In this document: positions 5,968 through 62,644 of the stretch, piece by piece
How positions within the stretch are numbered: the stretch's first letter is position 1
Layout: each line of letters starts with the position of its first letter
Assembly: GCF_003932755.1 (NCBI RefSeq)
Contig: NZ_CP024202.1
Span: 2,914,001 to 2,978,000 of the forward strand
Length of the DNA: 64,000 nt
DNA from: Methylomicrobium sp. wino1
GTDB lineage: Bacteria; Pseudomonadota; Gammaproteobacteria; Methylococcales; Methylomonadaceae
Direction of reading: 5' to 3'
Made by a program: the position numbers and the translations under genes
The notes under the pieces: generated by a model
What the model saw: only the letters and a program-made list of their open reading frames with translations
The model's database searches: none
Told to the model about the DNA's origin: nothing

Positions 5968-6152
5968 AGAATGAATCCTGGGCAAATTGACTGTCGTTGG
6001 TTAAGGCATCTTTTATTAGGTTAATATAGCTTAGCATTGCCGATAGCGTTAAGGGTAAGTTGTAAGCGTATCAGTTAGAATAACCAAGAAGTTCGGCTTA
6101 TTATTTCCCTGCTAACTAATCTTAGCCCGAGAGAAATAACTCAGGAGATTTT

Positions 6153-7298: not shown

Positions 7299-10200
7299 AG
7301 CCGGTAAAACTGACGATTCAGGCATTCGGGCCGTTTGCCGGTAACGAAAGTATCGATTTCGGCTTGCTCGGACCCAATCCTTTGTTTTTGATCAACGGCC
7401 CGACCGGTTCCGGCAAAAGCTCGATCTTGGATGCGATTTGTTTTGCGTTGTATGGTCAAAGTACCGGCGCGGAGCGAGAGCCGTCGCAGATGCGTTGCGA
7501 TCATGCCGATATTAACATGCTGACCGAAGCGATATTGGATTTCAATCTGGGGACTGAAAACTACCGTATTCGCCGCATTCCCGTTCAAGAGCGGCCTAAG
7601 AGCAAGGGCGAAGGTACCACGACGCAACAGGCCGAAGCCCAGTTGTGGCAACTCGACGGCACCGATGAAGGCAAGCTCATCGTTGCCAAAAGCGTGACCG
7701 ATGCGACGAACGAAGTCAAACGATTGATCGGTTTGGATGTTGAACAATTTCGTCAAGTCATGGTATTGCCGCAAGGAAAATTCCGCGAATTGCTAATGGC
7801 CGATTCGAAAGAGCGGGAACAAATTTTCGGGCAGCTATTTCGAACCGGAATTTACAAACGCATCGAAGAAGCGTTAAAAAATCAAGCGGCTGGTATTCGC
7901 CAAGAAGTCGAACGGCATCGAAACCAGATCAAAGGGATTTTGCACGGCGCCGAAATGGCATCCGAAGCAGAAGTCGATGAAGCGCTCGAGGCTCTGCAAC
8001 CCGAACTTGCTGCCGCTTCGGAGGAGAAGGAACAAGCCAATCAGAAAATGCTTCAGGCCGCGCGCGTCAGAGAACAAGCGCAAGCAGTGAAGCAACGTTT
8101 CGACAATCTCGACACCAAACAAAAAGCGCTGTCCGACAAAGCCGCACAAAAACCGGAAGTCGATAAGCAACAGCATCGGCTCGACAGCGCGTTGCAAGCT
8201 GAAAAAATTCGGCATCTCTACGATAATTATCAGGCCAAGACGAAAGAGAAGGCAAAATTACTCGAGCAGATTCAAGCATGCCAAACAGCGCTTCAATTAG
8301 CTGCAGCAAACGAACTAGAAGCCAAACAAAGCGTCGATGCCGCTAAACAGGCTTACGCCGAGGTCGAGGCATTGAAGCATAAGCGCATTGAACTTCAGCA
8401 ATATCGAGACCGGATTGCGGAGCTGGCCGAGGCCAGGGTGACGCTTCAAAATCGCCAAAAAGAGTTAACCGCCGCGAGAAAAGCATTCGATGCTCGAAAA
8501 CTCGAACAACAAGCGCTGATTAACGAATTGGCGGACAAAGACAAGGCTTTTGTCGAAATCAGTCGCGAATTGGAATCGCTCGCGACGATGCGGATCGAAT
8601 GGGAAGCGCAACGCCGCAATCTCCAGCAGCGTCAACAGTTGGAAGATCTGCGTAACGAGCAAACGCGCTTACGGCACAACGAGAGCAAGCTTGCCGCGGC
8701 CTTCGAAACGCAAAAAGCCGCCTACGACGCGCTTGAAAAAGAAGCCCGTCAAATCGAGATGCATTGGCATCTCGGACAGGCCGCGTTATTGGCCGAAGCA
8801 CTGCAAGGCGGGCAGCCTTGCCCGGTTTGCGGCAGTATAGAACATCCGAAGCCGGCGGTAGCGGCAAATGACGAGGCGCTCGTGACCAAACACCAAGTCG
8901 ATCAGGCTCGCGCCGATGAAAATCAAGCGCGTAACCTCATGCAAAACGCCAAGGAAAAATGGGATGCCGCGTTGAATGAGTTGACCGTCAATCGAAAAGA
9001 TATCGAACAATTGGCGCGGCAATTAGAACAACTGGCCGAACAACCCTTGCAAGCGCTTGTCGATACGTTCGCTAACGTTAGCGAGACTGTCGATCGGCTC
9101 GTTGAGCGGCAAGCGCAACAAAAGACCTTAGGCGCGCGAATCGATACGATCAAAGGATTGCTCTCAAGCACGACTGAAACGCTTGCCGAGCTTGAAGCAA
9201 GTGCCGCTAGCGTCAACGAACAGTTCATTCAAGCCCGATCTAACTCGGAACAGTTGGAAAAATTAATTCCTGAAGACTATCGGGAGCCGAAAGTGCTTGA
9301 ACAAACTTTGTCTCAGTTGAATCGGCGTATCACGGCATTGAGCGATGCATTGACTCAAGCGGAAGCCGACTATGCCGCAAAACACTCGGAACTAGACAAG
9401 GCAAGCAGCAAACTGGAGGCCTTACAACAGCAGCGCGAGGCGCTTGAAAGCCAGTATAGCGAGGCCGAAGCGCAATGGCGCGATGCGCTCGCACGCAGCA
9501 CTTTTGCCGATGCCGACGCATCCCATTCAGCGTTGATGGCCGACCCCGAACAGCACAGCCTCAAAGCCGAAATCGAAGCCTATCGAGACGAACTGGTCGG
9601 CTTGCAAGAAGTTGTCAAGCAACTCCAAGCCGATTTGGCAGGCCATGCCCCACCCGACATGCAAGCGATCGAAGGGCAGCTGACCGAACAGACCGCACGG
9701 TACCGAAAAGTCGAGGAAAGCTGGCGTAAACTCGAAGAACGCGTTAATCAGTTGGCCCGCGTCAAAGACAAATTAACCCAGGCCCGCGCTACGCAAGCCG
9801 AACTCGAGGCGCGTTACGAAGTGTTCGGCACGCTTAGCGATGTCGCCAATGGCCAGACCGGCGATAAGATCAGCCTACAGCGTTTCGTATTGAGCGTGTT
9901 GCTCGACGATGTGCTGATTCAGGCGTCCGAACGCTTGACTCTGATGAGCAAAGGCCGTTACCGAATGGTGCGTAAGGAAGACCGAGCCAAAGGCAACAAA
10001 GCGTCAGGCTTGGAGATGGAAGTCGAAGATGCCTATACCGGTAAAAACCGTCCGGTCGCGACCTTGTCGGGCGGCGAATCGTTCATGGCGGCCCTAGCGT
10101 TGGCGCTGGGCTTGTCGGATGTCGTGCAGTCCTATGCCGGCGGCATCAAGCTCGATACCTTATTTATCGACGAGGGTTTCGGCAGTCTCGATCTCGAGTC

Positions 10201-10357
10201 GCTGGATTTGGCGATTAGAACGCTGATCGATTTACAGGCTTCAGGCAGGATGATCGGTATCATCTCGCATGTGACCGAATTGAAGGAGCAAATGGCGCTC
10301 AGGCTCGATGTCATCGGCTCCAAAACCGGCAGCAGTGTGCGCACGATTGCGACTTGA
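7295..10357 (+). CDS. sbcC: Exonuclease subunit SbcC (Rad50-like ATPase)
   Basis: 1020 residues, the SMC-like partner of SbcD. The Walker A motif GPTGSGKSS is at residues 35-43. A long coiled coil follows, interrupted by the zinc-hook motif CPVCG at about 508-512. A second coiled coil leads to the ABC signature LSGGESF (about 923) and the Walker B/D-loop LFIDEGFGSLD (about 957). All parts needed for ATP-driven opening and closing of the nuclease are present and the length is normal. It starts at the ATG inside the sbcD stop overlap. The gene ends 29 bases before a repeat cluster. Confidence 0.97.
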   Translation: MKPVKLTIQAFGPFAGNESIDFGLLGPNPLFLINGPTGSGKSSILDAICFALYGQSTGAEREPSQMRCDHADINMLTEAILDFNLGTENYRIRRIPVQERPKSKGEGTTTQQAEAQLWQLDGTDEGKLIVAKSVTDATNEVKRLIGLDVEQFRQVMVLPQGKFRELLMADSKEREQIFGQLFRTGIYKRIEEALKNQAAGIRQEVERHRNQIKGILHGAEMASEAEVDEALEALQPELAAASEEKEQANQKMLQAARVREQAQAVKQRFDNLDTKQKALSDKAAQKPEVDKQQHRLDSALQAEKIRHLYDNYQAKTKEKAKLLEQIQACQTALQLAAANELEAKQSVDAAKQAYAEVEALKHKRIELQQYRDRIAELAEARVTLQNRQKELTAARKAFDARKLEQQALINELADKDKAFVEISRELESLATMRIEWEAQRRNLQQRQQLEDLRNEQTRLRHNESKLAAAFETQKAAYDALEKEARQIEMHWHLGQAALLAEALQGGQPCPVCGSIEHPKPAVAANDEALVTKHQVDQARADENQARNLMQNAKEKWDAALNELTVNRKDIEQLARQLEQLAEQPLQALVDTFANVSETVDRLVERQAQQKTLGARIDTIKGLLSSTTETLAELEASAASVNEQFIQARSNSEQLEKLIPEDYREPKVLEQTLSQLNRRITALSDALTQAEADYAAKHSELDKASSKLEALQQQREALESQYSEAEAQWRDALARSTFADADASHSALMADPEQHSLKAEIEAYRDELVGLQEVVKQLQADLAGHAPPDMQAIEGQLTEQTARYRKVEESWRKLEERVNQLARVKDKLTQARATQAELEARYEVFGTLSDVANGQTGDKISLQRFVLSVLLDDVLIQASERLTLMSKGRYRMVRKEDRAKGNKASGLEMEVEDAYTGKNRPVATLSGGESFMAALALALGLSDVVQSYAGGIKLDTLFIDEGFGSLDLESLDLAIRTLIDLQASGRMIGIISHVTELKEQMALRLDVIGSKTGSSVRTIAT

Positions 10358-10385
10358 TATGGAATTCATCGTCAAGAGGTTATCT

Positions 10386-10513
10386 TATACCTTTCACCCT
10401 TCAAATTTCGGCAGTGTCTAAGGAGGTGCCGGGGTGCTGGCATAGAGCCTACATGTATCCACGGCGTCCTTTGACGGATCCCCGATGCCGAATTTGGATC
10501 CACGATGGTTATA
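10386..10513. repeat. Dispersed repeat C, copy 1
   Basis: Starts TATACCTTTCACCCTTCAAATTTCGGC and ends near CGATGGTTATA. Inverted ends of the TATACC / GGTATA type, variable GC-rich middle. Related copies at 12091, 13395 and 56123. Confidence 0.7.
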
Positions 10514-10672
10514 AATTCGGCAGATTAACCATGAAGCACATGAAGTAATTCAAAAGCTTGCCTGTGTATCTTCGCTAAGCTCTCGGGTGAGCGAGAGTTT
10601 TGCACAAACGCGTAACAAGTTATTGAATTAACTTCTTATTCTTCATGATTTTCATGGTGAAGTGATTTTTTG
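10510..10672 (+). repeat. Dispersed repeat B, copy 3 (forms the 3' end of hoxW)
   Basis: Third copy. Its right end (AAGAATAAG... read on the minus strand) provides the last eleven codons and the stop of hoxW. It directly follows repeat C (10386-10513). Confidence 0.8.
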
Positions 10673-11151
10673 GCCAGTTCACGCCAGACATCGACATCCG
10701 GCTGTCTTAATAATCGTTCCGCATATTGGCCGGCCCGTTGTAAATGTTCTCGCGCTTTCGGGCTTAAATCGCTGCCTAATTCGAATTGTTCGCCTTGAAT
10801 GCTCAACAAGAAACACGGCGGAGGGGCTCGGTGTTTGATGGTTTGATAAACGTGCAACACGGCGGCAGGGCTCATCGCATGCGTGGTGTAACTCTTGTCA
10901 TGAGCGGGCTCGAGCTCCCTGAAATCGAACGCGCCTTTGCAGGCGACCGAGGCATCGATAAACAACACCAGATTCCGGTCTTCAAGATCGAGAGCATGTT
11001 CGACCTGCAATTGAAAGTCGTTCAAAATTTCGACGGAACCCGGTTCTATTCGATTCTGAATTATTTCCAGCAGTAACGGGCCGAGTGCATCGTCGCCCCG
11101 GCTGAGGTTGCCGTAGCCGAAGATCAGAATGGGTAAGGTTTTATTCATCAT
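10636..11151 (-). CDS. hoxW: Hydrogenase maturation endopeptidase (HoxW/HycI family)
   Basis: 171 residues of the hydrogenase maturation protease family: N-terminal FGYGNLSRGDDALGP with the nickel-sensing Asp/Glu region, then VLFIDAS and a C-terminal helical part. These proteases clip the C-terminus of the large [NiFe] subunit after nickel is inserted. The only hydrogenase in the window is the NAD-reducing type (hoxH at 49206), so a HoxW role is inferred, although the gene is about 38 kb away. The last eleven codons (KKSLHHENHEE) and the stop are read from the end of a dispersed repeat present elsewhere in the window, so the C-terminus has been replaced or extended by it. Start ATG at 11151 with AGGA upstream; ATG 11148 is equally possible. 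Confidence 0.85.
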   Translation of the reverse strand: MMNKTLPILIFGYGNLSRGDDALGPLLLEIIQNRIEPGSVEILNDFQLQVEHALDLEDRNLVLFIDASVACKGAFDFRELEPAHDKSYTTHAMSPAAVLHVYQTIKHRAPPPCFLLSIQGEQFELGSDLSPKAREHLQRAGQYAERLLRQPDVDVWRELAKKSLHHENHEE

Positions 11152-11173
11152 GCAATCCTATCGATAAAAAATG

Positions 11174-12061
11174 TTATTTCGATCCGCGTGGTGTTGCGTT
11201 AATCAAGTGATTTTTGGCGCTTATCGTAGCAAAAAAATCCAGGAGGACTTCCTGGTTTTGACGGAATCCAAACGTCTGTATATGACCGCCTTGAGTTGGG
11301 TGAAATCGTTTGGGCGGCTTAGCGGTTCGATAAAGTCGTCTGCCATGATTGTATGGAATGAGTTTGTCGTCGACACTATGAAAGAACAGCAATGGAATCG
11401 GTGCGAGATTTTCGACGACTTCGATAGGGTTATAGGAGTAGTTTAACGACCAGGCAAACAGGTATTGAAATGGCCAAGTTAGCCAATGGTTTGCCGCGAC
11501 ATCGCGGGCAATTTGAAAATAGCCGGTAAAGGCCGCATCGCTAATGATGCCGGCTAAGTATTGCCGGGCCGACGGGGTCCGGGCGGCAAAATAGATGCCG
11601 AGACTGGCGCCGAGGCTCTGGCCCAAAAGAAATAATGGTCTCGATTCGGATTTTTCGATCAGCCAATCGAATCCTGTCTCGATATCGAGAAAAATATCCG
11701 GCAGGTTCGGTTTGCCTTCGGAATTCCCGAAACCGCGATAATCGATTAACAAAACCTGATAGCCGTGCTCAGGCAGCCATTTGACGTTAAGGATATGCGT
11801 GCTTATATTTTGCGCATTGCCGTGCAAGAAATAAACGCTGCCTTTGAGCTCACCCAACGCCGGTAAAAACCAACCGTGAATCGTGAGTTCGTCCCGGGTC
11901 TTCAGGTAGACGTCTCGATAGTGAAGGCCCAGCGATACGGGTTTGAGAACGTGCTGTTCACTCGGATAGAACAATAGGCCGGAACATCCGCAGCAACTCA
12001 GTAAAGTTAGCATGGCTACAAGACAGCGCCACGTCCCGCATCTTGAAATATCGATTGTCAT
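11174..12061 (-). CDS. Alpha/beta hydrolase, probable lipoprotein (ABHD13/BEM46-like)
   Basis: About 295 residues from the ATG at 12061. A TTG at 12109 is also in frame, but those extra codons come from a dispersed repeat and are probably not native. The N-terminus has a hydrophobic stretch ending in a lipobox-like LLSC. The serine hydrolase fold follows: oxyanion region FLHGNAQN, DYRGFGNSEG, the nucleophile elbow GQSLG, the acid in HSVDDKLIP and the catalytic His in GGHIQTF. It belongs to the uncharacterised BEM46/ABHD13-like hydrolases. The substrate is unknown; probably anchored at the inner or outer membrane facing the periplasm. Confidence 0.85.
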   Translation of the reverse strand: MTIDISRCGTWRCLVAMLTLLSCCGCSGLLFYPSEQHVLKPVSLGLHYRDVYLKTRDELTIHGWFLPALGELKGSVYFLHGNAQNISTHILNVKWLPEHGYQVLLIDYRGFGNSEGKPNLPDIFLDIETGFDWLIEKSESRPLFLLGQSLGASLGIYFAARTPSARQYLAGIISDAAFTGYFQIARDVAANHWLTWPFQYLFAWSLNYSYNPIEVVENLAPIPLLFFHSVDDKLIPYNHGRRLYRTAKPPKRFHPTQGGHIQTFGFRQNQEVLLDFFATISAKNHLINATPRGSK

Positions 12062-12090
12062 CGTGTCGATATTAAACGGTAAAGGCCATT

Positions 12091-12214
12091 TATACCTTTC
12101 GCACTTCAAATTTCGTCAATGCCAGAGGATGCGCAGGGGTGTTCGATCCCTCACCTAACGCTAGGTGAGGGATCGAACACCCCTGCGCCGAATTTTGATA
12201 TACGATGAGTATAT
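12091..12214. repeat. Dispersed repeat C, copy 2, with long hairpin
   Basis: TATACCTTTCGCACTTCAAATTTCG at 12091 and a matching TTTTGATATACGATGAGTATA at the right. The middle is the perfect hairpin at 12131-12188. The left end overlaps the upstream codons of the minus-strand hydrolase. Confidence 0.72.
12131..12188. repeat. Long perfect hairpin upstream of cobO
   Basis: 27-base arms (12131-12157 and 12162-12188) with a four-base loop, GC-rich. It sits inside a copy of the 'GGTATA...TATACC' repeat (12091-12214), between a divergently transcribed hydrolase and cobO. It could form a very stable RNA hairpin. Confidence 0.9.
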
Positions 12215-12316
12215 GAAGCAAAGTCATTTTGTCGATGTTGATGGTCCGGTAATACTTGCGTTCATGAATGAAGGTGTTACTCTGCTCGACATTTGATAAC
12301 TTGTAAAGGAGATTGA

Positions 12317-12853
12317 ATGAAAGCGAGAGATAATCGTCGTGGCTTGGTGTTGGTCAATACCGGCGAAGGGAAGGGCAAGTCTTCGAGTGCGTTGGGCATG
12401 GTGTTTCGCGCCGCCGGCTGGGGCATGAAGGTTTGCGTGATTCAGTATATTAAAGGCCAATGGAAAACTGGCGAACACAAAGCCGCGGAGCGTTTCGACA
12501 ATATCGAATGGCATGCTTTGGGCGACGGCTTTACTTGGGATACGAAAAATCCCGAGCAGGATATTAAAACCAGCCGTTCGATTTGGGAGTTCAGTAAGGA
12601 AAAAATTAAGTCTGAAGCCTATGATTTCGTATTGCTCGATGAAATCAATTATTGCTGCGGTTATCAATGGATTTCCGGACAAGAAATCGCCGAGTTCATT
12701 AAAAATGAGAAGCCGTCCTGGATGCATTTAGTGCTGACTGGGCGCAATGCCGCGCCGGAGGTCATTGAAGTTGCCGATACTGTGACCCATATGACGCTGG
12801 TTAAACATGCGTATACCCAGGGTATCAAGGCAGAGCAGGGAGTTGAGTTTTAA
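12317..12853 (+). CDS. cobO: Cob(I)yrinic acid a,c-diamide adenosyltransferase
   Basis: 178 residues, CobO/BtuR (CobA-type) family. It transfers the adenosyl group from ATP to cobalt to make adenosylcobalamin. The P-loop GEGKGKSSSALG lies at residues 14-25, with the family motifs GMVFRAAGWG, QYIKGQWKTGE, VLLDEINYC and LTGRNAAPEVIEVAD. The start ATG at 12317 has a strong AAAGGAG site. No other cobalamin gene is in the window, so it may serve corrinoid salvage. The upstream region holds a long perfect hairpin (12131-12188) but nothing I recognise as a cobalamin riboswitch. Confidence 0.95.
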   Translation: MKARDNRRGLVLVNTGEGKGKSSSALGMVFRAAGWGMKVCVIQYIKGQWKTGEHKAAERFDNIEWHALGDGFTWDTKNPEQDIKTSRSIWEFSKEKIKSEAYDFVLLDEINYCCGYQWISGQEIAEFIKNEKPSWMHLVLTGRNAAPEVIEVADTVTHMTLVKHAYTQGIKAEQGVEF

Positions 12854-12969
12854 ACGGCTCTAATCATTGCCGAGATAAGCGTATTAGCATAGAATCCATA
12901 TGGTATTGCCGGATGTTTTGAAAAGTTTTCGGTATCATACTTATAAAAATAAACAACCTAGAGGGTACT

Positions 12970-13335
12970 ATGTCTGAAACAACTAAAATTGTAATTGCAG
13001 TTATTGGTGTTTTTGTCGCCGGATTTATTGTCGTGGGGGTCAGCAAACAAGAATCCGTCCAGGACAAAGAATCGGCGGCAATGATTAGAACTTATGTTGC
13101 GATGCAAGAGATGGCATCTAAAAAATGCCCGGCCGCGATCATGAAGGAAACCGGCGAACAGGTATTTTTTCCATCCGAGACGAAAAGCGACAAGGAGTCT
13201 TACGTAACTTATAACTATCAAGGTGAAACCGATGCATTCAAAAACGCTTCTTGCACGTTGCGGATGGAGGTCGGCGGTATTTCCGACTTGGTCATCGACG
13301 ATAAAGTCATTATCAAAAAAGAGAAAAAAAAATAG
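12970..13335 (+). CDS. Small hypothetical protein with one N-terminal membrane segment
   Basis: 121 residues. The N-terminal segment at about residues 7-25 (IVIAVIGVFVAGFIVVGV) is a single membrane anchor or uncleaved signal. The rest is soluble with two cysteines (KKCPAAI and ASCTLRM) that could form a disulfide in the periplasm, and ends in a lysine-rich tail. The ATG is preceded by an AGAGGG ribosome site. I recognise no family. It stands alone, between cobO and a repeat-rich gap. Confidence 0.7.
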   Translation: MSETTKIVIAVIGVFVAGFIVVGVSKQESVQDKESAAMIRTYVAMQEMASKKCPAAIMKETGEQVFFPSETKSDKESYVTYNYQGETDAFKNASCTLRMEVGGISDLVIDDKVIIKKEKKK

Positions 13336-13394
13336 AACCTCGTAAAAGTTCAGACTGGGTACATGGAAGTACCTACATAGGATTTGGTCAAGAA

Positions 13395-13470
13395 TATACC
13401 CATCGTAGATCAAAATTCGGCACCTGGCGCCTCCTAAGACACTGCCGAAATTTGAAGTGCGAAAGGTATA
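13395..13470. repeat. Dispersed repeat C, copy 3
   Basis: TATACCCATCGTAGATC at 13395 and CCGAAATTTGAAGTGCGAAAGGTATA ending at 13470, with a short middle. Lies downstream of the small membrane protein gene. Confidence 0.72.
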
Positions 13471-13609
13471 ACTTCACTATTTCGTGAAGGTTCGACTCGA
13501 TTGACAGGTGTCGACGGCAGGGCAGATTTTTACATTCACGCCATCTTTAGGAACGAGCATGAAATAACTTCTTTATTTCTTATCTTCATGCTGAAATGCA
13601 TTTTCTAGG

Positions 13610-14833
13610 TTAATGCTTAAATTGGCTTAGAACATCCAAAAAATAATCGATGTCTTTTTCTGTGTGAGCAGCGGAAATCTGCAGCCGGATTTCTTGTTCG
13701 CCTTTGGCGACGACCGGGTAATTCAAGCCGGTTACCAAGATGCCGTGCTCGAAACAATGTTGCACTAAGGCCCCTGTTTTATCGGTATTCCTAACCATGA
13801 TCGGTACGATCGGATGTTCGCCGGGTAAAGTCTCGAACCCCAATTGAGTTAATTCGCTCCTGAGCCTTAAGGCTAGCGTTTTAATATGGCTAAGCAAGTC
13901 CTTGCCTTCGGAACTATCTAATATGTTCAATGCGGCCAAAGCTGCAGTCGCTTCCGGCGAAGTAATCGGATTGGAATAAATATAACTCGCCGACGTTTCC
14001 TTCAAAAAGTCGATAACTGTTTGGCTGGAAACGACATAGCCGCCGTTGACGCCGAGCGCTTTACCCAGCGTCGCAATCAAGATGTCCGCTTGGCTTGCAG
14101 TAATTTCCTCGGTACCTCGGCCGGACGGTCCGAGCGCGCCAATGCCGTGCGAATCGTCGACCACCGTCAGAATGCCTTGTTCGTAATCGGCTTCATGTTT
14201 TTGGCGGATGGCTTCGATCTTATCCAATGGCGCATGGTCGCCGCGCATGCTGAAGACGCCGTCGGTAACAATGATTACCCGTTCCGCTTGGCCTTTGTTA
14301 TCGATCAGTATTCGTTCGAGCTCGGCTAAGTTCAAATGTGGATAAACCGCTTTTCGCGCCGTTTTGGCCAGCCGAATCGCATTGATGATGCAATTATGAT
14401 TGAGCGCGTCGCTGGCGACGAGCGTATCTTCGTCGATCAATGCCGGCAAGATTCCGATCATCGCCGCATAGGCCGCGCTGAATAGCATGGCTGCCTTGCG
14501 ACCATGAAATTGGGCCAGTCGGTTTTCCAAGTCGATATGAGGCTGATAGGTCCCGCTGATAAACCTCACCGCGCCGGGACCGGTACCGAAGGTTTCGGCG
14601 GCTTTCAATTCGGCAGCAATGACAGCGGGATGACTCGAAAGGCCAAGGTAAGCGTTAGCATTCATTCTCAAAAAAAGCCGGTCAGGATAATCACGAAGCA
14701 ATACTCTAGGACCGAAACCGTTGTTGGCGGGTTTGAAACCGATGATGATTTTTTCCTTGCCTTTCGCGATACCTCTAACTTGCATCGCGGAGAGTCTGTC
14801 TCTTAACAGTGCGTCGAGTTTGGTAAGTGTCAT
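13610..14833 (-). CDS. kbl: 2-amino-3-ketobutyrate CoA ligase / alpha-oxoamine synthase family
   Basis: 407 residues of the PLP-dependent alpha-oxoamine synthase family (Kbl, BioF, HemA, Spt). The PLP lysine is K258 in ATLGKALGVNGG; DDSHGIGALGPSGRG and the N-terminal NAYLGLSSHPAV are typical. The gene follows an SDR-type threonine dehydrogenase on the same strand. Such a pair would convert threonine to glycine and acetyl-CoA through 2-amino-3-ketobutyrate, which is why Kbl is preferred to 8-amino-7-oxononanoate synthase. The ATG at 14833 has AGAGG upstream. The 196-base gap from the upstream gene contains degenerate AGTAAG/AGTGAA-like repeats, so a separate promoter is possible. Confidence 0.85.
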   Translation of the reverse strand: MTLTKLDALLRDRLSAMQVRGIAKGKEKIIIGFKPANNGFGPRVLLRDYPDRLFLRMNANAYLGLSSHPAVIAAELKAAETFGTGPGAVRFISGTYQPHIDLENRLAQFHGRKAAMLFSAAYAAMIGILPALIDEDTLVASDALNHNCIINAIRLAKTARKAVYPHLNLAELERILIDNKGQAERVIIVTDGVFSMRGDHAPLDKIEAIRQKHEADYEQGILTVVDDSHGIGALGPSGRGTEEITASQADILIATLGKALGVNGGYVVSSQTVIDFLKETSASYIYSNPITSPEATAALAALNILDSSEGKDLLSHIKTLALRLRSELTQLGFETLPGEHPIVPIMVRNTDKTGALVQHCFEHGILVTGLNYPVVAKGEQEIRLQISAAHTEKDIDYFLDVLSQFKH

Positions 14834-15029
14834 GATGACCTCTTTTGGCGGGTAGTGATTGGAAAATAGTAAGCGGTTAGTGGTAAGCAGTAAGTAGTGA
14901 ATAGTGAACAGGACTACCGACTTAACGCGTGACAGTTTAAGGTTAATCCTTAGTGCTTTTGTCCCGCCTTAAGCGGGAAGCCTTGAATAGTGAGTAGTGA
15001 AGTGATTTTTCACTACCTTCATCATCGGT

Positions 15030-15971
15030 TTATTCGGTTATGTGCTCTAGCATGTCCTTGATCATCGTTGCTAGGTCGTATCGCGCTTGCCAACCCCATT
15101 CTTGTCGGGCGGCGATATCATTCATGTGGCGTGGCCAAGAGTCCGCTATGGCTTGTCTAAGCGGGTCGATTTTATAGCTCATTTTGAAATTGGGAATATG
15201 TCGGCGAATTTCTGCTGCCAGTTGCTCGGGCGTGAAGCTCATCGCGGTCACATTATAGGCATTGCGGTGGATCAAGCGTTTGGGGTCGGCTGTCATTAAT
15301 TGCCAAATCGCATCGATCGCATCGGGCATGTACATCATGTCCAATTGCGTATCAGGTTTGAGATAGCAGGTATAGCGTTGCCGGTGGATAGTGGCGTAGA
15401 AAATTTCGACCGCGTAATCGGTCGTGCCGCCACCGGGCGGCGTTTTGTAGGAAATCAATCCCGGAAATCTAAGCCCCCGAGTGTCGAGGCCGTAGCGCTT
15501 GTGATAATAATCGCACAGTAACTCGCCGGTTACCTTGCCGATGCCGTAAAGTGTATTGGGGCGCTGTATCGTTTCCTGGGGCGTATCGAAAGCCGGCGTG
15601 TTCGGTCCGAAAGCGCCTATCGAACTGGGAAAAAACACCGAGCAAGCGTGTTTACGTGCGATTTCCAAAATATTGAACAAGCCATCGATATTGACCGACC
15701 AAGCCCTTTGTGGGTCCGCTTCGGCAACCGCGGACAATAGCGAAGCGAGGTGAATGATCGTATCGATGCGATATTCCTCGACAATCCGATCCAATACTGC
15801 GATATCTTCAATGTTCAGCCGACAATAGGGGCCGGTGTTCGTGAACTCGGTATCAGGTTGTTTGCGGTGGCCGGCGGCTATGACGGAATCATTGCCGTAT
15901 CGCTTTCTGAGGGCGGGCGTCAATTCCGATCCGATTTGTCCGGTGGCGCCGGTCACGAGTATGGTTTTCAT
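15030..15971 (-). CDS. tdh: NAD-dependent L-threonine 3-dehydrogenase, short-chain (epimerase-like) type
   Basis: About 313 residues from the ATG at 15971, chosen because the Rossmann motif (VTGATGQIGSEL) then starts at the usual distance; an ATG twelve codons upstream is open. The extended-SDR catalytic pair is in YGIGKVTGE. FPGLISYKTPPGGGTTDYA is typical of the threonine dehydrogenases that resemble UDP-glucose 4-epimerases. The product oxidises threonine to 2-amino-3-ketobutyrate, the substrate of the downstream Kbl. Cytoplasmic. An epimerase of unknown substrate is the alternative, but the kbl neighbour argues for Tdh. Confidence 0.85.
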   Translation of the reverse strand: MKTILVTGATGQIGSELTPALRKRYGNDSVIAAGHRKQPDTEFTNTGPYCRLNIEDIAVLDRIVEEYRIDTIIHLASLLSAVAEADPQRAWSVNIDGLFNILEIARKHACSVFFPSSIGAFGPNTPAFDTPQETIQRPNTLYGIGKVTGELLCDYYHKRYGLDTRGLRFPGLISYKTPPGGGTTDYAVEIFYATIHRQRYTCYLKPDTQLDMMYMPDAIDAIWQLMTADPKRLIHRNAYNVTAMSFTPEQLAAEIRRHIPNFKMSYKIDPLRQAIADSWPRHMNDIAARQEWGWQARYDLATMIKDMLEHITE

Positions 15972-16018
15972 CTTTTCTGAAAATCGCCTTTCATTTTTTC
16001 GAAGCATTGTACGGATTA

Positions 16019-16612
16019 TTAATAGGTTCGGCTAAGGTTGTCTTGATCGGCGAAGGTTTGGATGACTTCTTCTGCCAATTCAGTTATTTTCCGTCGCTGG
16101 TCTCTAGCGCTTTTGCGCAAATATTCAAATGCGGCTTCTTCGGTGAGGAGTTGATTCTTCATGATCAGGCCGACTGCTATGCAGACGCTTCTGCTTTGGG
16201 ATAGCGCTTTGTCGAGCTGTTTGTTTTCGTATTTCAGATTAATTAATTCTTTGTTTCTTTCGAGCACCGCTTCGATGGTCAAAATCAGTTGTTCGAGACT
16301 GCAAGGCTTAACCAAATAATTCATGCAACCGGAAGCGATGGCTGCTTTTACCGTATCCTCGTCGGAATAGGCGGACAAGAAAATGACTGGAACGTCGAGT
16401 ACTTGTACAAGATGTTTGGCAACGTCTATACCGGTCATTTCCGGCATGCGGATATCTAAAACCGCAATGTCCGGCTTCCGGTCTTGAGCAAGTTGAATAG
16501 CCTTGTCGCCCGAGGCGGCTTCCAACACATTATAACCGGATAGTCTGAGTCCGCGGCTCATGGTTCCAAGAATGAGTCGGTCGTCGTCGGCAAGAAGTAT
16601 TGTTTTAGTCAT
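16019..16612 (-). CDS. ANTAR-domain response regulator
   Basis: 197 residues. The receiver domain is complete (LLADDDRL; VLDIRMPEMTG; FLSAYSD; LVKPCS). After a short coiled coil, an RNA-binding ANTAR domain follows at about residues 135-190, with LIMKNQLLTEEAAFEYLRK as its diagnostic helix. ANTAR regulators bind paired hairpins in leader RNA and stop transcription termination. The likely kinase is the HisKA_2-type sensor upstream on the same strand (17210-18784), as the two families are commonly paired. Target transcripts cannot be identified here. The frame ends at a stop overlapping nothing else. Confidence 0.92.
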   Translation of the reverse strand: MTKTILLADDDRLILGTMSRGLRLSGYNVLEAASGDKAIQLAQDRKPDIAVLDIRMPEMTGIDVAKHLVQVLDVPVIFLSAYSDEDTVKAAIASGCMNYLVKPCSLEQLILTIEAVLERNKELINLKYENKQLDKALSQSRSVCIAVGLIMKNQLLTEEAAFEYLRKSARDQRRKITELAEEVIQTFADQDNLSRTY

Positions 16613-16783
16613 TAATAGTTAAAGTTAGGCCGATGGAGCCCTAAACGCTTAGGTTATCGCTAAAAATAGTTTCCAAAATATGCTTGTAAGTGATTCGTTT
16701 TTTTGTTCAATAAGGAAGACGTGATGAACCTAGAAACTAAATTCGATAGGTTATTGGCTGTAACTATTCAGTCCCCCGGCAAT

Positions 16784-16886
16784 TGGCGTTCCCACGCTCT
16801 GCGTGGGAACGCCTGAGTACCTCTCCAGCGGTACGAGACGCTAGAGTGTCTCGTACTTTATTCCCACGCTGGAGCGTGGGAACGAT
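16784..16886. repeat. REP-like GTTCCCACGC palindrome, copy 3
   Basis: GCGTTCCCACGCTCTGCGTGGGAACGC, then an inner hairpin ACGAGACGCTAGAGTGTCTCGT, then TTCCCACGCTGGAGCGTGGGAACG. Lies between the kinase and ANTAR regulator genes. The rest of this gap (16613-17209) has no gene that I support. Confidence 0.75.
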
Positions 16887-17209
16887 AGGGGATGTAAATA
16901 ATTACGGCGAATCATGCATTTAATATAGCGAACTTATTCCTACCTTATTTTAAAGTCATATCCGCGCAATAGCGGAATCAGGCTAGGGTCTTGGCGGCGT
17001 AGTGAAGTTGAAAAAAAGTAGGACCGAATCTGAATATAAAAGTTTGAAGTTTAACTACTTTTAGACGAATATAATCGGTTTGATCAAGATGCACCAATAA
17101 TTCGATAAAGATAATACAAAGCGGGGGCTGGGGTTTGTATTTGATTCGGTAATTTAATTGAAAAGCAATTGGAAGTAAAGAATCGGACCGGCATTTTGTA
17201 ATCATAGGC

Positions 17210-18784
17210 TTACTTGTTGCTTGATCTATAAAACGGATTGGATTGAGTTTTATGAAAAATCAACGGCGGCATCATCGTCAGTTGTGCGGTAACTGTGTAG
17301 TTCGATTGATAAATGTACAATCGCGATTGTTCCGGCATCAATGTTTTCACTAGCGAAAGTCCCGTGCCGATTTTCATCGATTGTTCGAAATCGAAACCTT
17401 GAGGTAGCGAAGCCGGTTCGTTCTTGACGGTAAAGATCGCATGATGCTTATCAAAATCCAGAGAAACCGAGAGTTTTTTGTTTCCTCCGGGGCTGTGTTT
17501 GATGGCATTATGCAATAGTTCGTTAACGATTAACGATAACGACACGGCATTGTCTCGATCGACGCGAATCGGATGATCGAAAGGTATTTGCAGATCGATG
17601 GTTTCGTTGGTGCTAAAAAATAAACGCTGACAAAATTCTGTTGAGGAATGAACAATATCGCACAAATAAATTTCGCCGTTTTCTGCCTTACTTTGCAATC
17701 CGTAAGTAATTGCCAGTGAATTGATTTGCAACATGCTTTGTTCGAGAATCGCTTTGGCTTCGGGGTGCTCTAATGCGTTGTTTTGCAATAAGCCGAAAAT
17801 GCCTTGTAAGTTGTTCTTGATTCGGTGGTGAACTTCTCGGATTAGCGTATTTTTATGCAGTTGTTCTCGCTCCAACAGCTTACGATCTTCCTCGATATGT
17901 TCGCAAATGTCGGATATTAATATGACAAAATAATCGACCGTACCGGAATCGTTGCTAACGGAGTTGGCGGACAGTTTAACGCTGCTGACTGTGCCGTTTT
18001 TATGGATCAATTGACTGTTGACGATACCGCTATGGTCGATGTTTGGGGTGAAAAGAAAGTCCTCGTTCGTATCTCGAAAACTGAGCAAAGTCCTCAATGG
18101 GGCGTTCTTTAACTTGGTTTCGTCATAGCCTGAGAGTCGATAAATATAATCGTTAGCCGATAAAATCCTCCTTTCTGGAGAAATCGTCAAAACCCCGATC
18201 AACCCCGATGTCGTAAAAATATGCTGTATTGTCTGGTTTTTGCTTGACGTTTCATCGGAAAATTTATCGGTTCTTTGTATTATGTTGTGTATTTTTAATG
18301 GCTTACCGCTCGGGTCCCTGGTGATCTTGCCGTGTTGACGAATAGGAATGACTATGTGTTCCGGATGTTGTAAGCGATACTGAACGGTAAAAGTATCAAG
18401 ATGGATTAATGCGTCTTCAAAGGCTCGTTTGATACGGTTTTGATCGTCAGGATGAAGTTTTGTCAGAAAAAGATCGTGGCTTAAGGTATTTTCGTGTTCG
18501 GAAAAGCCGAACAATCTGATGAAATCCTCGCAGCCTTCGATCCTTCCGGTTTCGATATGCCATTCGTAAAATACACTGTTTGTGGCAAGCTTTAGATGTT
18601 TGAGTTTTTGCTGTTGGTCATGATGCTCAACGAGAAGGTTGCGGTATTTTCGGTGATAATGCGTAAAGCCCCAAATAGGTAAGCCTGCAATTAGCATCGT
18701 TAAGTACCCTGCTTCGAAAAAACTGCTCAGCGGGATTGTCGAAAAGTAGAATCCTGACGCGGCAAAATCATTGAAATCGGTCAT
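17210..18784 (-). CDS. PAS-containing sensor histidine kinase (HisKA_2 / HWE-like)
   Basis: 524 residues. One N-terminal membrane segment (about residues 24-42) is followed by a coiled stretch and two PAS-like domains (FYEWHIETGRIEGCEDF and ILSANDYIYRLSGYDE). The phospho-acceptor helix is the HisKA_2 type (REVHHRIKNNLQGIFGLLQ). The ATPase domain has an N-box (VNELLHNAIKHSPGG) and a G-box (KIGTGLSLVKTL). Kinases with this helix usually signal to receivers other than OmpR/NarL types; the ANTAR regulator 600 bases downstream is the natural partner. The signal is unknown. ATG 18784 has GGAAGACC upstream. Confidence 0.9.
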   Translation of the reverse strand: MTDFNDFAASGFYFSTIPLSSFFEAGYLTMLIAGLPIWGFTHYHRKYRNLLVEHHDQQQKLKHLKLATNSVFYEWHIETGRIEGCEDFIRLFGFSEHENTLSHDLFLTKLHPDDQNRIKRAFEDALIHLDTFTVQYRLQHPEHIVIPIRQHGKITRDPSGKPLKIHNIIQRTDKFSDETSSKNQTIQHIFTTSGLIGVLTISPERRILSANDYIYRLSGYDETKLKNAPLRTLLSFRDTNEDFLFTPNIDHSGIVNSQLIHKNGTVSSVKLSANSVSNDSGTVDYFVILISDICEHIEEDRKLLEREQLHKNTLIREVHHRIKNNLQGIFGLLQNNALEHPEAKAILEQSMLQINSLAITYGLQSKAENGEIYLCDIVHSSTEFCQRLFFSTNETIDLQIPFDHPIRVDRDNAVSLSLIVNELLHNAIKHSPGGNKKLSVSLDFDKHHAIFTVKNEPASLPQGFDFEQSMKIGTGLSLVKTLMPEQSRLYIYQSNYTVTAQLTMMPPLIFHKTQSNPFYRSSNK

Positions 18785-40441: not shown

Positions 40442-41798
40442 ATGCGATGCTTTTCGCCGGTTCTTCTTTTTCTTCTGACATTTTCGCCACTGAACTACGC
40501 CGCAACTACTGCGCAGCTTGAAACAGCGCGCGACAAAGCGCTGGCTTATTTAATTTTGCAACAAAACGGCGACGGGAGCTTCGGCAAGCAAACCGAATTG
40601 CGAGTACGCACCACTTCGGAAGCGTTGCAAACGCTGGCCCGTTACGGCATGGCGCAAAGTCATGCAGCGAAGGCAGCGAAAAGCTGGCTGGTCAATCGTT
40701 CCGTGCAAAGCATCGACAGCTTGGCGCATAGTATCAAGGCTTTGGTCTCGGTAGGAGCTAGCCCTTCGTAGGCGATCGAGCAACTATTGTCACTGCGTAA
40801 CACCGCCTTACACAAATGCTGGGGCCCTATAAAAATTACCATGTCAGTTCTATCGACACGGCCTTGGCTTCCGAAGCCTTGGCGGCCGCGAACCGTAACT
40901 ACGACAGTTCCTTAAATAGCTTGCAATGTTTGTGGACTAATAACAGTACCTCCGTTCATCGGGAAGTCTACTAGCCACCTCGCAAAGCTTAATGGCTTTT
41001 AGCCGCTATCGCAACAATCACTCCTTAGACACCCATATCAATAACAGCCTCAACTGGCTGCAAGCCAGACAAAAACCTGACGGCGGTTTCGCCGAAGACA
41101 GCAATGCGCAAGCCGGTCGTGTCTTTGAGACGGCGCAAGTGGTGAAAGCGCTCATGCTGGCGCAAAGCGCCGGTAACCCTACCGCACAAAACAGCACGTT
41201 TCAAAATGTACTGAATAACGCCCTCGATTTTCTCTTGGCTCGTCAACAAAGCGGCGGAAACTGGCAAGACGGACTTCTACCGACTTTGCTCGCAGCACAG
41301 ATCGCGCCGCAAAGTCAGCTTCCGGACACCGACGGCGACGGCATTCCCGACAGCGTCGAGATCGAACTCGGCAGCAATCCCGCTATTGCCGACAGCAGCC
41401 AATTCGCGGTCGGTAACGGCGAAGCACTGCCCGGGGCCAGCACCGCAATAGTCGCCGGTGGTGCCATGGTCCAACAAGCCTTCGAGACCGATTTGGCGGC
41501 CTCCTGCGGCAATGGAAACTACGCTTGGTCGCTGGTATCCGGCAGCCTCCCCGAAGGCATGACACTGAATACGGCAACCGGCCGGCTAAGCGGTACCCCG
41601 ACGCAAGTCGGACAATTCAACTTTGTTTACCGGGCAGCCGATAGCGAGGGCTGGAGCGAAGACGTGTTGATGCAAATCGCAATCGAAGCGCCGCCGCCGG
41701 TACAAGTTCCGTTCATGCCGGAATGGATGTTGGCGGTCTTAGCCTTCCTCTTGTTTCTGATCGGACAATTCTACCGTCAACGCCCCACCACACGATAA
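40442..41798 (+). pseudogene. Decayed secreted repeat protein with IPTL/PEW-CTERM-like sorting signal
   Basis: One original gene now split over three frames. The first part (40442-40771) has a signal peptide (FSPVLLFLLTFSPLNYAA) and a prenyltransferase-like helical repeat (LAYLILQQNGDGSFG). It ends at TAG 40769-40771 where QAIEQLL would continue. Coding resumes in frame +1 near 40822 (PYKNYHVSSIDTALASEAL) and again in a third frame from about 40960 (LLATSQSLMAFSRY). The last part has more repeats (LNWLQARQKPDGGF), a calcium-type DTDGDGIPDSVE segment, an Ig-like domain, and a C-terminus VPFMPEW-membrane helix-QRPTTR resembling exosortase H substrates. The fragments are too consistent with one protein to be separate genes. 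Confidence 0.88.
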
Positions 41799-60521: not shown

Positions 60522-60588
60522 GGATACGGTAAAAAAATAACTTACCTAAATTTTTCTCACGCCTTGCGCACATCCCTCACAAGCTTAT

Positions 60589-60735
60589 CGTTCCCATGCT
60601 CTGCGTGGGAACGGCAGCTTTAGACGCTCCGCGTCGACAGCACCTGGTCGTTGGATTGAGAAATTGTAGGGAGCGTACTCGTTCTATTGTTTCTATGCGT
60701 CCCGGGATGCATTCCCACGCAGAGCGTAGGAACGA
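60589..60735. repeat. REP-like GTTCCCACGC palindrome, copy 4
   Basis: ATCGTTCCCATGCTCTGCGTGGGAACG at the left, ATTCCCACGCAGAGCGTAGGAACGAT at the right. Ends 30 bases before the ERG2-like gene and is probably in its leader or promoter region. Confidence 0.7.
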
Positions 60736-60771
60736 TGAAACATCCGCCATGCCCGACTAAGGAGAAAGTCA

Positions 60772-61341
60772 GTGAGTTATGTATTCGATATCGATCGTCT
60801 TCATGCCATCGCTCGGCAAGGAATCGGGAAGTCCCACGACGAAATGGTGAAAATAATAGTGGAAGAAACCGCCCGGGCCTATCCCAAACACATCGATTCC
60901 AATCCAAATCGCCGATGGCTATTCAGCTTGACGGCGGGCGCGACCGGTGTGATGACGATACTCCATGCATCTTTTACCGAGTATTTGATCATCTTCGGAA
61001 CGCCGGTGGGTACTGAAGGCTTTTCCGGCCGCTACCGCATGGAGATTCATGATTTTTTTATGGCCGGTGAGGTTTGGACTTACCGGAAAGACCGTTGTGG
61101 CGTGCGCGAAATCGCAGAGCCCGGCGATCATACCATTCTGGAACGGGGTAGCGTCAACGGGTTTAAAATCCCTGAATCGGCTTGGATGTTGGAATATGGT
61201 CGAGGATTCATTCCATCCGCTTTTTCGCTTATTTTAGGCGATGTTGTATTCAGTGCTTTCGATGGGACGACCTTGACCGAGACGGTTTGGATATATGGCA
61301 AAATGGCGTTACGGGAGCTGATTGTCAATCAGAAGTTCTAG
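60772..61341 (+). CDS. ERG2 / sigma-1-receptor-like sterol isomerase homologue
   Basis: 189 residues with clear similarity to fungal ERG2 (sterol C8 isomerase) and the sigma-1 receptor. Seen: ILHASFTEYLIIFGTPVGTEG (in pieces), FSGRYRMEIHDFF, PGDHTILERG, MLEYGRGFIPSAF, GDVVFSAFDG and the end LIVNQKF. The two acidic residues needed by the eukaryotic proteins correspond to D94 and E141. Unlike them it has no N-terminal membrane segment. It would move the sterol ring double bond, for example from position 8. Start GTG at 60772 is supported by AGGAG ten bases upstream. It is followed by the sterol reductase with a 19-base gap, so forms an operon. The reaction is inferred. Confidence 0.88.
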   Translation: MSYVFDIDRLHAIARQGIGKSHDEMVKIIVEETARAYPKHIDSNPNRRWLFSLTAGATGVMTILHASFTEYLIIFGTPVGTEGFSGRYRMEIHDFFMAGEVWTYRKDRCGVREIAEPGDHTILERGSVNGFKIPESAWMLEYGRGFIPSAFSLILGDVVFSAFDGTTLTETVWIYGKMALRELIVNQKF

Positions 61342-61360
61342 TGCTGAAAGAGAGCGGATT

Positions 61361-62644
61361 ATGAGTGAACAAGAATCGAGCGACAATACGGCCGTGGATA
61401 CGGTTCGTCAGAACTACGGTTTCGGCTTTTCCTGGCTTGTGCTCATGATAGCGTTGCCGCCACTTGTCTATTATTTGTGGATTTGCGTCACTTATTACCA
61501 AGGCGAACTGATCTTCCCCAGCGACACGGTGGCTTGGCGGCGATTTTGGTCTTATGTTGAACCGCCGACCTGGCAAGCGGCAGGCCTGTACGCGGCTTGG
61601 TTTTTAGGTCAGGCCGCGTTACAGGTTTGGGCGCCTGGTTCGACGGTTCAAGGCATGAAACTGCCTGACGGCAGTCGGCTCGATTATCGGATGAATGGAA
61701 TATTTTCTTTCCTATTTACCCTGGCCGTGGTGTTCGGTTTGGTAACGATGGGTTGGTTGGACGCCACGGTTTTGTATGATCAACTTGGTCCATTGCTTAG
61801 TCTGGTAAATATTTTTACCTTTGTTTTTGCGGGGTTTCTCTATTTCTGGGGCTTGAACGGTGAGGAATGGGAGCGGCCGACAGGGCGCCCTTTTTATGAC
61901 TATTTCATGGGGACGGCGCTTAACCCAAGGATTGGTTCCCTTGATCTCAAGCTGTTCTGCGAAGCTCGCCCCGGCATGATTTTTTGGTTACTGATGAATC
62001 TTTCCATGGCCGCTAAGCAGCACGAATTGCATGGTACGGTGACGGTTCCAATGTTACTCGTGGTGGGATTTCAGAGTTTTTATCTGATCGACTACTTTAT
62101 TCATGAGGAAGCCGTTCTCACCACTTGGGATATCAAACACGAAAAATTTGGCTGGATGCTTTGTTGGGGTGATCTGGTGTGGCTGCCTTTTACCTACACA
62201 TTACAGGCTCAGTATTTGGTTCATCATACCCATGACCTACCCGCATGGGGGATTGTTGCTATTGTGGCTTTGAACTTGGCCGGTTATGCAATTTTTCGGG
62301 GCGCCAATATCCAGAAGCACCATTTTCGGCGCGATCCAAACCGGTCTGTGTGGGGCAAGCCGGCAGAATATATAAAAACTGCCCAAGGTTCATTATTACT
62401 GACCTCCGGTTGGTGGGGCATGGCTCGTCACATGAATTATTTCGGCGATTTAATGATTGCTCTCTCGTGGTGTTTGCCCGCGGCTTTCGGTAGTCCAATT
62501 CCTTATTTTCATATCGTGTATTTCACCATTTTGCTTCTGCATAGGGAAAAGCGAGATGATGCGATGTGCTTGGCGAAGTACGGCGAAGACTGGTTGCGCT
62601 ACCGGAAGAAGGTACCGTGGCGTATCGTGCCGAAAATTTACTAA
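61361..62644 (+). CDS. Sterol C14-reductase, ERG4/ERG24 family (MaSR1-like)
   Basis: 427 residues from ATG 61361, preceded by AAAGAGAG; the in-frame TTG at 61322 overlaps the ERG2-like gene. Many membrane helices. The C-terminal signature of the family is complete: LLTSGWWGMARHMNYFGDL, PYFHIVYF, LLHREKRDDAMCLAKYGEDW and RIVPKIY at the end. It uses NADPH to reduce the C14-15 double bond of sterols after C14 demethylation. A closely similar enzyme (MaSR1) from Methylomicrobium alcaliphilum has been structurally solved. With the ERG2-like gene it is part of bacterial sterol biosynthesis; squalene cyclisation genes are not in the window. Confidence 0.93.
   Translation: MSEQESSDNTAVDTVRQNYGFGFSWLVLMIALPPLVYYLWICVTYYQGELIFPSDTVAWRRFWSYVEPPTWQAAGLYAAWFLGQAALQVWAPGSTVQGMKLPDGSRLDYRMNGIFSFLFTLAVVFGLVTMGWLDATVLYDQLGPLLSLVNIFTFVFAGFLYFWGLNGEEWERPTGRPFYDYFMGTALNPRIGSLDLKLFCEARPGMIFWLLMNLSMAAKQHELHGTVTVPMLLVVGFQSFYLIDYFIHEEAVLTTWDIKHEKFGWMLCWGDLVWLPFTYTLQAQYLVHHTHDLPAWGIVAIVALNLAGYAIFRGANIQKHHFRRDPNRSVWGKPAEYIKTAQGSLLLTSGWWGMARHMNYFGDLMIALSWCLPAAFGSPIPYFHIVYFTILLLHREKRDDAMCLAKYGEDWLRYRKKVPWRIVPKIY

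Follow-up and report, generated by a model that had tools for sequence, protein, structure and literature searches.

Near the right end of the 64,000-nucleotide stretch of the Methylomicrobium sp. wino1 genome analysed here (the window), two genes follow each other on the forward strand, the first encoding an ERG2-like protein, putatively a sterol isomerase, and the second a C14-sterol reductase (Table 1). The ERG2-like protein matches the Pfam profile PF04622 (ERG2_Sigma1R) from position 21 to 209 of 210 (E 4.5e-51, 173.7 bits, cut-off 21). This is its sole Pfam match at E <= 0.001, and the protein is hence not a member of the emopamil-binding protein (EBP) family, PF05241. Among PDB sequences five matches are found at E <= 1, four of them to the sigma-1 receptor (best E 2.6e-34) and one to a reductase at chance level (E 0.35). 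Identity amounts to about 40% with Xenopus sigma-1, 34% with human sigma-1 and 31% with a yeast ERG2 sequence that, here as in all alignments and trees, is provisional and not taken from a database. The protein ends in LIVNQKF, as stated in an earlier reading of the DNA letters (the original prediction), whose claim of ERG2/sigma-1 membership over most of the length is confirmed by the profile, the PDB matches and the fold described below; indeed, profile and structure searches, named there as a possible source of refutation, both place the protein inside the family.

Table 1. Features of the gene pair and its surroundings, in window positions.
Feature	Position	Strand	Basis
ERG2/Sigma-1 family gene, putative sterol delta-8 to delta-7 isomerase without N-terminal anchor	60772..61341	+	189 aa, GTG start, TAG stop
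Probable ribosome-binding site of the ERG2-like gene, AAGGAG	60759..60764	+	read from sequence, 7 nt before GTG
Barrel strands (residues 60-144) and C-terminal helices (149-185) of the model	60949..61326	+	structure model, alignment
Codons of D94 and E141	61051-61053, 61192-61194	+	aligned with human D126, E172
Gap between ERG2-like stop and reductase ATG, 19 nt	61342..61360	+	sequence; 19-22 nt in 8 methanotroph regions
ERG24-type C14-sterol reductase, MaSR1 (4quv) orthologue	61361..62644	+	PF01222 E 8.3e-124; 4quv E 5.7e-290
Imperfect 25-nt inverted repeat upstream of the pair, arms 60587-60611 and 60712-60736	60587..60736	.	REP-like (repetitive extragenic palindrome); link to the pair an unproven candidate

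A structure model of the ERG2-like protein, derived from 12 aligned sequences, is of modest confidence (mean predicted local distance difference test, pLDDT, 66.3; predicted template modelling score, pTM, 0.63). Its best 42 matches among solved structures are all sigma-1 receptor chains, the first with E 9.5e-14 and a template modelling (TM) score of 0.72, after which, from E 3.7e-4, small barrel proteins including cupins appear. The protein is thereby predicted to adopt a sigma-1-type cupin fold with C-terminal helices. In a family alignment of 36 rows, 33 bacterial and three eukaryotic, the glutamate equivalent to human E172 (E141 in the window protein) is present in every row. The second acid lies at human position 126 in 29 of the 36 rows, D94 of the window protein among them, at position 124 in six and at neither in one. 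The six rows are five Myxococcota and the provisional yeast ERG2, in which the acid matching D94 lies two residues earlier (DYF, compared with IHD in the window protein). Since barrel-strand residues two apart face the same way, the two arrangements may represent one pocket acid displaced by a single step. The statement of the original prediction that both key acidic residues are present is thus correct with respect to sigma-1 (D126 and E172), but it does not hold column by column with respect to the provisional yeast ERG2. Independently of the yeast sequence, a Myxococcota protein with the acid at position 124 (L040) scores 265.8 bits with PF04622, as compared with 173.7 for the window protein. 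The row with the second acid at neither position is a very divergent ERG2-like protein (L058, G862:C421; 80 bits), in which the E172 equivalent is kept.

The N-terminal membrane anchor, already reported as missing from the window protein, is lacking in all the bacterial members examined. In none of the 33 does an in-frame upstream start precede a hydrophobic 19-residue stretch (mean Kyte-Doolittle value >= 1.6), and thus none can carry a transmembrane anchor of the eukaryotic N-terminal type. In the window, the frame upstream of the GTG is open for only 11 codons and has no earlier start, so that the anchor was not simply missed. Over 19 residues, the hydrophobicity of the protein peaks in the stretch that starts at residue 145, within the region of the C-terminal helices, by which the anchor-less protein would probably meet the membrane.

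The product of the partner gene is identical to MaSR1 of Methylotuvimicrobium alcaliphilum (PDB 4quv) in 403 of 427 residues (94%) and shows no material difference from it. In a genome of the same genus (G037) the reductase is identical to 4quv in 427 of 427 residues, which indicates that this is probably the MaSR1 strain or a similar one, and ERG2 lies directly upstream there too. MaSR1 is reported to have demonstrated C14-sterol reductase activity. The order ERG2 then ERG24, on the same strand and with gaps of 19-22 nt, was found in 8/8 methanotroph regions measured, so that both the 19 bases between stop and start and the pairing with a MaSR1-type reductase stand as originally described. 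The two genes are probably co-transcribed. The promoter scan returned two promoter-like sites (3.0 expected) and the terminator scan six terminator-like ones (3.7 expected). A recent island was considered and discarded, as the guanine-cytosine content of the ERG2-like gene (0.498) and of the reductase gene (0.492) is near that of the window (0.480), with nothing pointing to a recent arrival.

The association of the two genes extends to their distribution. Among 201 genomes of the window's family, PF04622 is present in nine. PF01222 is found in 22 at E <= 0.001 and over its cut-off in ten, nine of them full-length (399.8-417.1 bits) and in the very genomes that have PF04622, the tenth being a 27.7-bit fragment; the co-occurrence of ERG2 and full-length ERG24 has a Fisher p of 8e-16. 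Two genus mates (G060, G078) have a match of oxidosqualene cyclase (OSC) strength, reported in G060 with one internal stop, and neither ERG2 nor ERG24. Outside the family, PF04622 was found in 1 of 398 genomes sampled from the window's phylum, namely the window's own, in 19 of 282 Myxococcota (the phylum of Minicystis) and in 2 of 95 genomes from the phylum of a Rokubacteria metagenome-assembled genome (MAG), recorded as Rokuibacteriota, which we take to be Methylomirabilota in GTDB. Among the Myxococcota, ERG24-family genes above 100 bits occur in 14 of the 19 ERG2-positive genomes and in 32 of the 263 others (p 9e-9). Cyclases of OSC strength are present in 10 of 11 ERG2-positive methanotroph genomes, the exception being a 2.9-Mb MAG (G599), and in 14 of the 19 Myxococcota. 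In parallel, two peptide patterns run against named genomes gave at least 11 distinct loci (eight methanotrophs, a Deltaproteobacteria MAG, Minicystis rosea and the Rokubacteria MAG), a lower bound since most Myxococcota that turned up later had escaped both patterns. Carriage of the ERG2-like gene by plasmids or viruses was also considered; no match was found in a plasmid collection, and none of 28 pattern matches in viral contigs is a relative. Four Myxococcota ERG2-like proteins (L048, L050, L052 and L055, from G604, G610, G854 and G739) form a well-supported clade (100/98-99), the four genomes having no ERG24-family match and three of them no OSC match; these proteins may have another role, or the genomes may be incomplete.

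The two-gene order itself recurs in other phyla. ERG2 is followed by ERG24 in the Deltaproteobacteria MAG (G600, assigned to Myxococcota by the tree tool), in the Myxococcota genome G865, in the Rokubacteria MAG (G602) and in G926, a genome of the same phylum as G602. In G926, ERG2, ERG24, squalene epoxidase, OSC and a CYP51-like P450 lie inside 9 kb. The run begins with a LolA-like protein and an MMPL/sterol-sensing-domain protein ahead of ERG2, ERG24 and squalene epoxidase, and continues with an FAD protein (weak geranylgeranyl-reductase match), an oxidosqualene-cyclase-type cyclase, the P450 and a protein of the epimerase/3-beta-hydroxysteroid dehydrogenase type. In G602, ERG24 is followed by a Rieske-domain protein, which is the same kind of protein as SdmA. 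In G779, ERG2 adjoins a CYP51 match, and matches to squalene epoxidase (26% and 22% identity), the ERG24 family and OSC lie within 10 kb. Collectively, these clusters and the co-occurrence support the sterol-pathway role that had been proposed for the pair. The G926 cluster (L160, G926:C113:122001-142000, at about 5087-18602) is compact in its own right, and its leading LolA-like and MMPL/sterol-sensing-domain genes resemble a sterol transport part. Apparent ERG2-ERG24 fusions (L043, L046 and L047, with open frames 617-663 residues long) were rejected, as ERG2 starts late inside a long open frame of high guanine-cytosine content. The Deltaproteobacteria MAG holds a second reductase-like gene (L035/L038, G600:C309:7226-8462), which is split between two frames at one place and whose C-terminal part is 70% identical to the window reductase.

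A further element of the argument is what these genomes do not encode. EBP, which belongs to a family unrelated to ERG2 and carries out delta-8 to delta-7 isomerisation in animals and plants, was found in none of 15 methanotroph genomes searched, that of the window included, nor in G600, G602, G865 and G779, while the Minicystis genome (G601) has it. Family, pairing and the missing EBP make delta-8 to delta-7 isomerisation after C14 reduction the most likely function of the ERG2-like protein. In the proposed scheme, CYP51 would yield the delta-8,14 diene, whose 14-double bond would be reduced by the MaSR1-type enzyme with hydride from NADPH to give a delta-8 sterol; the ERG2-like cupin protein would then shift the delta-8 double bond to delta-7, with E141, aided by D94, protonating C9 and a proton being lost from C7. 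The first of the pair's two steps agrees with C14-reductase chemistry as described in PMC13277303, which, like the other papers cited below, is drawn on in excerpt.

The same intermediate probably has another consumer in this organism, which the original prediction did not include. The core sterol cluster of the window's genome (C1:4445-10877) contains a CYP51-ferredoxin fusion, a 200-residue protein, a cyclase and squalene epoxidase. The 200-residue protein (G000:C1:6086-6688, beside CYP51) has no Pfam match and holds Y37, Y43, Y78, Y80, D133 and D136, the six residues that, at the same positions, were mutated in 8,14-Bsr of Methylococcus capsulatus according to the excerpted part of PMC13277303. 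Since all six are present, the protein is taken to be probably 8,14-Bsr, an enzyme of the NTF2 superfamily that is unrelated in sequence to the pair, acts on the same delta-8,14 intermediate and yields a delta-8(14) product (PMC13277303, in the passages used). With the pair and this candidate encoded at separate places of one genome, there would be two routes out of the delta-8,14 intermediate, the pair competing with, or adding a branch to, the 8,14-Bsr route to delta-8(14) sterols. A possible additional cyclase in the window, at 40992-41798, was rejected as a weak and probably spurious squalene-cyclase match in a repeat protein (putative immunoglobulin domain, TSP3).

Part of this picture is already in print. 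In one sentence of its excerpted text, PMC13277303 (2026) credits Methylotuvimicrobium with both a C-14 reductase and a C-8 isomerase, so that a C-8 isomerase is not new for this genus; the main text contains neither 'ERG2' nor 'sigma', and the passages used mention no operon for the two activities. ERG24 of M. alcaliphilum (MEALZ_1312) is listed in the portion of PMC4919349 available. Among other bacteria, a homologue for C-8 isomerisation, of unspecified type, is placed in a cyanobacterial cluster by the excerpt of PMC10202945, and EBP, not ERG2, is named in Nannocystis in that of PMC10152446. No account of the two-gene unit, of its occurrence in further phyla, of its bacterial origin or of the shifted acid was found in the literature searched, to which the supplements of the sterol papers of 2023, 2025 and 2026 did not belong.

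Several observations weigh against a delta-8 to delta-7 isomerase. The strongest is that Table 3 of PMC4919349, in the portion available, gives M. alcaliphilum one sterol, 4,4-dimethylcholest-8-en-3-ol, and no delta-7 product, which speaks against such activity under the conditions used; the double-bond labels of that table are uncertain, as it designates the sterols of Methylococcus capsulatus delta-8 and the excerpt of PMC13277303 designates them delta-8(14). Cholesterol is made by Minicystis rosea (PMC12004948, in excerpt), whose genome also has EBP, so that its cholesterol is no proof of ERG2 activity. Similarly, EBP is over cut-off in 9 of the 19 ERG2-positive Myxococcota, and in 27 of the 263 others, which indicates that ERG2 and EBP are not mutually exclusive, and 5 of the 19 have no strong ERG24 match. 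None of five other sterol queries matched in 14 of 16 Myxococcota regions (L103-L118), nor in the Minicystis region, and the pair and the OSC cluster are widely separated in the window's own genome. Finally, the acid arrangement of the window protein is of the sigma-1 type, and sigma receptors, members of the same family, are described in the excerpt of PMC4967820 as lacking isomerase activity.

This last report also favours a reading in which the ERG2-like protein is no enzyme and acts as a sigma-1-like sterol-binding partner or stabiliser of the reductase, which we consider unlikely. Its strict pairing with the reductase in methanotrophs would be accounted for, and the best PDB and fold matches are to sigma-1, the only family member for which those searches returned solved structures. 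The ratio of nonsynonymous to synonymous substitution rates (dN/dS) of the ERG2-like gene is 0.04-0.21 in comparisons with seven methanotroph orthologues, dS exceeding 1 in five of the seven; this purifying selection and the conserved acids fit a partner and an enzyme alike. Against the partner reading, the 14 searched genomes with the pair have no EBP and would be left with no other isomerase of the two known families, and in most of the Myxococcota regions fetched the reductase is not near, which is at odds with an obligate subunit.

An isomerase of other regiochemistry, converting for instance delta-8(14) to delta-7 or delta-8 to delta-8(14) and so linking the MaSR1 and 8,14-Bsr branches, is another improbable reading with arguments in its favour: both branches are encoded in the window's genome, the acid arrangement is unlike that of the provisional yeast ERG2, and PMC13277303, in the text used, mentions a hypothesis by which the 8(14) sterols of C. 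elegans arise through an orthologue of the C-8 isomerase. It is countered by the two genomes of the Rokubacteria phylum, in which the same subfamily stands directly before ERG24, whose known product is delta-8, and in which no match to the 8,14-Bsr candidate was found in the 20-kb regions searched, the whole genomes not having been searched for it.

Trees were inferred for both families, with three eukaryotic rows for ERG2/sigma-1 (one being the provisional yeast sequence) and one for ERG24. The 11 methanotroph rows of the ERG2 tree group together (100/99) within a larger bacterial clade of 15 rows (96/91), which also takes in Rokubacteria, Minicystis, G865 and the Deltaproteobacteria MAG and whose support becomes 96/95 when the long-branched L058 is left out. 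In the ERG24 tree, the nearest neighbour of the 10 methanotroph rows (100/100) is G865 (97/93), followed by the Deltaproteobacteria MAG (92/94); in the ERG2 tree the MAG is, with weaker support, closer to the methanotrophs than G865, the opposite order. Grouping of methanotroph ERG2 with sigma-1 (p 0.0046), with the provisional yeast ERG2 (p 4.5e-5) or with the two together (p 8.7e-5) is rejected by approximately unbiased (AU) tests. The phylogeny with bacterial homologues that had been proposed as a check thus nests the methanotroph genes in a bacterial clade, and the suggested direct arrival of the ERG2-like gene from a eukaryote is disfavoured by this nesting among Myxococcota and Rokubacteria genes and by the AU tests.

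Fungi and animals possess both the ERG2/sigma-1 and the ERG24 family, which would be the ground for a direct eukaryotic source of the whole pair. Such a source is very improbable, as the methanotroph genes lie inside bacterial clades in both trees, which makes a eukaryote unlikely as the immediate source, as the AU tests reject the union of the methanotroph ERG2 rows with eukaryotic sigma-1, ERG2 or both, and as the two-gene order is repeated in other bacterial phyla. The same order and the same circle of nearest relatives for both genes indicate instead that the pair was probably passed between bacteria as a unit, presumably into the methanotrophs from a bacterial donor that resembled lineages found in Myxococcota or Rokubacteria. 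Taken as a whole, the account of a two-gene operon for two consecutive sterol ring-editing enzymes that reached the methanotrophs as a unit from another bacterium is one we hold to be reasonably likely.

With regard to fungal ERG2, the sterol C8 isomerase, the window protein is alike in the family profile over nearly its whole length, in the E172-equivalent glutamate and in the C-terminal KF tail (yeast sequence provisional), and it differs in having no N-terminal anchor, in its acid at the sigma-1 position, in the 31% identity to the provisional sequence and in its separate place in the tree. It resembles the sigma-1 receptor (PDB 5hk1, 7w2b) in fold, in both acids and in 34-40% identity, whereas it has no N-terminal transmembrane helix, neighbours a sterol reductase gene and is excluded by the AU test from a joint clade. 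A single clade of the three eukaryotic rows is likewise rejected (p 0.005), in a test with long branches, one provisional row and groups named after the first tree; the separation of eukaryotic ERG2 and sigma-1 is thus taken as a lead. A more speculative and rather doubtful extension is that the ERG2/Sigma-1 family arose in bacteria and had diverged into 126-acid and 124-acid designs by the time eukaryotes acquired it, fungal ERG2 deriving from the 124-acid Myxococcota branch and animal sigma-1 having a separate affinity. On that view, the methanotroph operon would preserve, in an unanchored two-gene form, what gave rise to a drug receptor and to two membrane-bound enzymes of sterol synthesis in eukaryotes.

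Should the pair work in the proposed way, the methanotrophs that carry it have two competing exits from one intermediate, one to delta-8(14) sterols via 8,14-Bsr and one to delta-8 and then delta-7 sterols via MaSR1 and the ERG2-like enzyme. This would bear on the use of delta-8(14) sterols as biomarkers of methanotrophy and on the role of each sterol in a tractable bacterium. In addition, a small, anchor-free bacterial relative of a much-studied human drug receptor would be a handy protein with which to examine whether sigma-1 is a sterol isomerase that lost its activity, and the distribution described here adds to the evidence for widespread bacterial counterparts of downstream sterol enzymes of eukaryotes.

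Two minor observations concern the surroundings of the pathway and of the pair. A Myxococcota oxidosqualene cyclase (L162, G610:C6) is 43-44% identical to the methanotroph cyclase, compared with 32-36% for most other Myxococcota cyclases, and is a possible relative of the source of the methanotroph enzyme. REP-like palindromes of the form GTTCCCACGC..GCGTGGGAACG occur at three sites in the window, two within the inverted repeat upstream of the pair and one at 16787-16811, where none is expected by chance.

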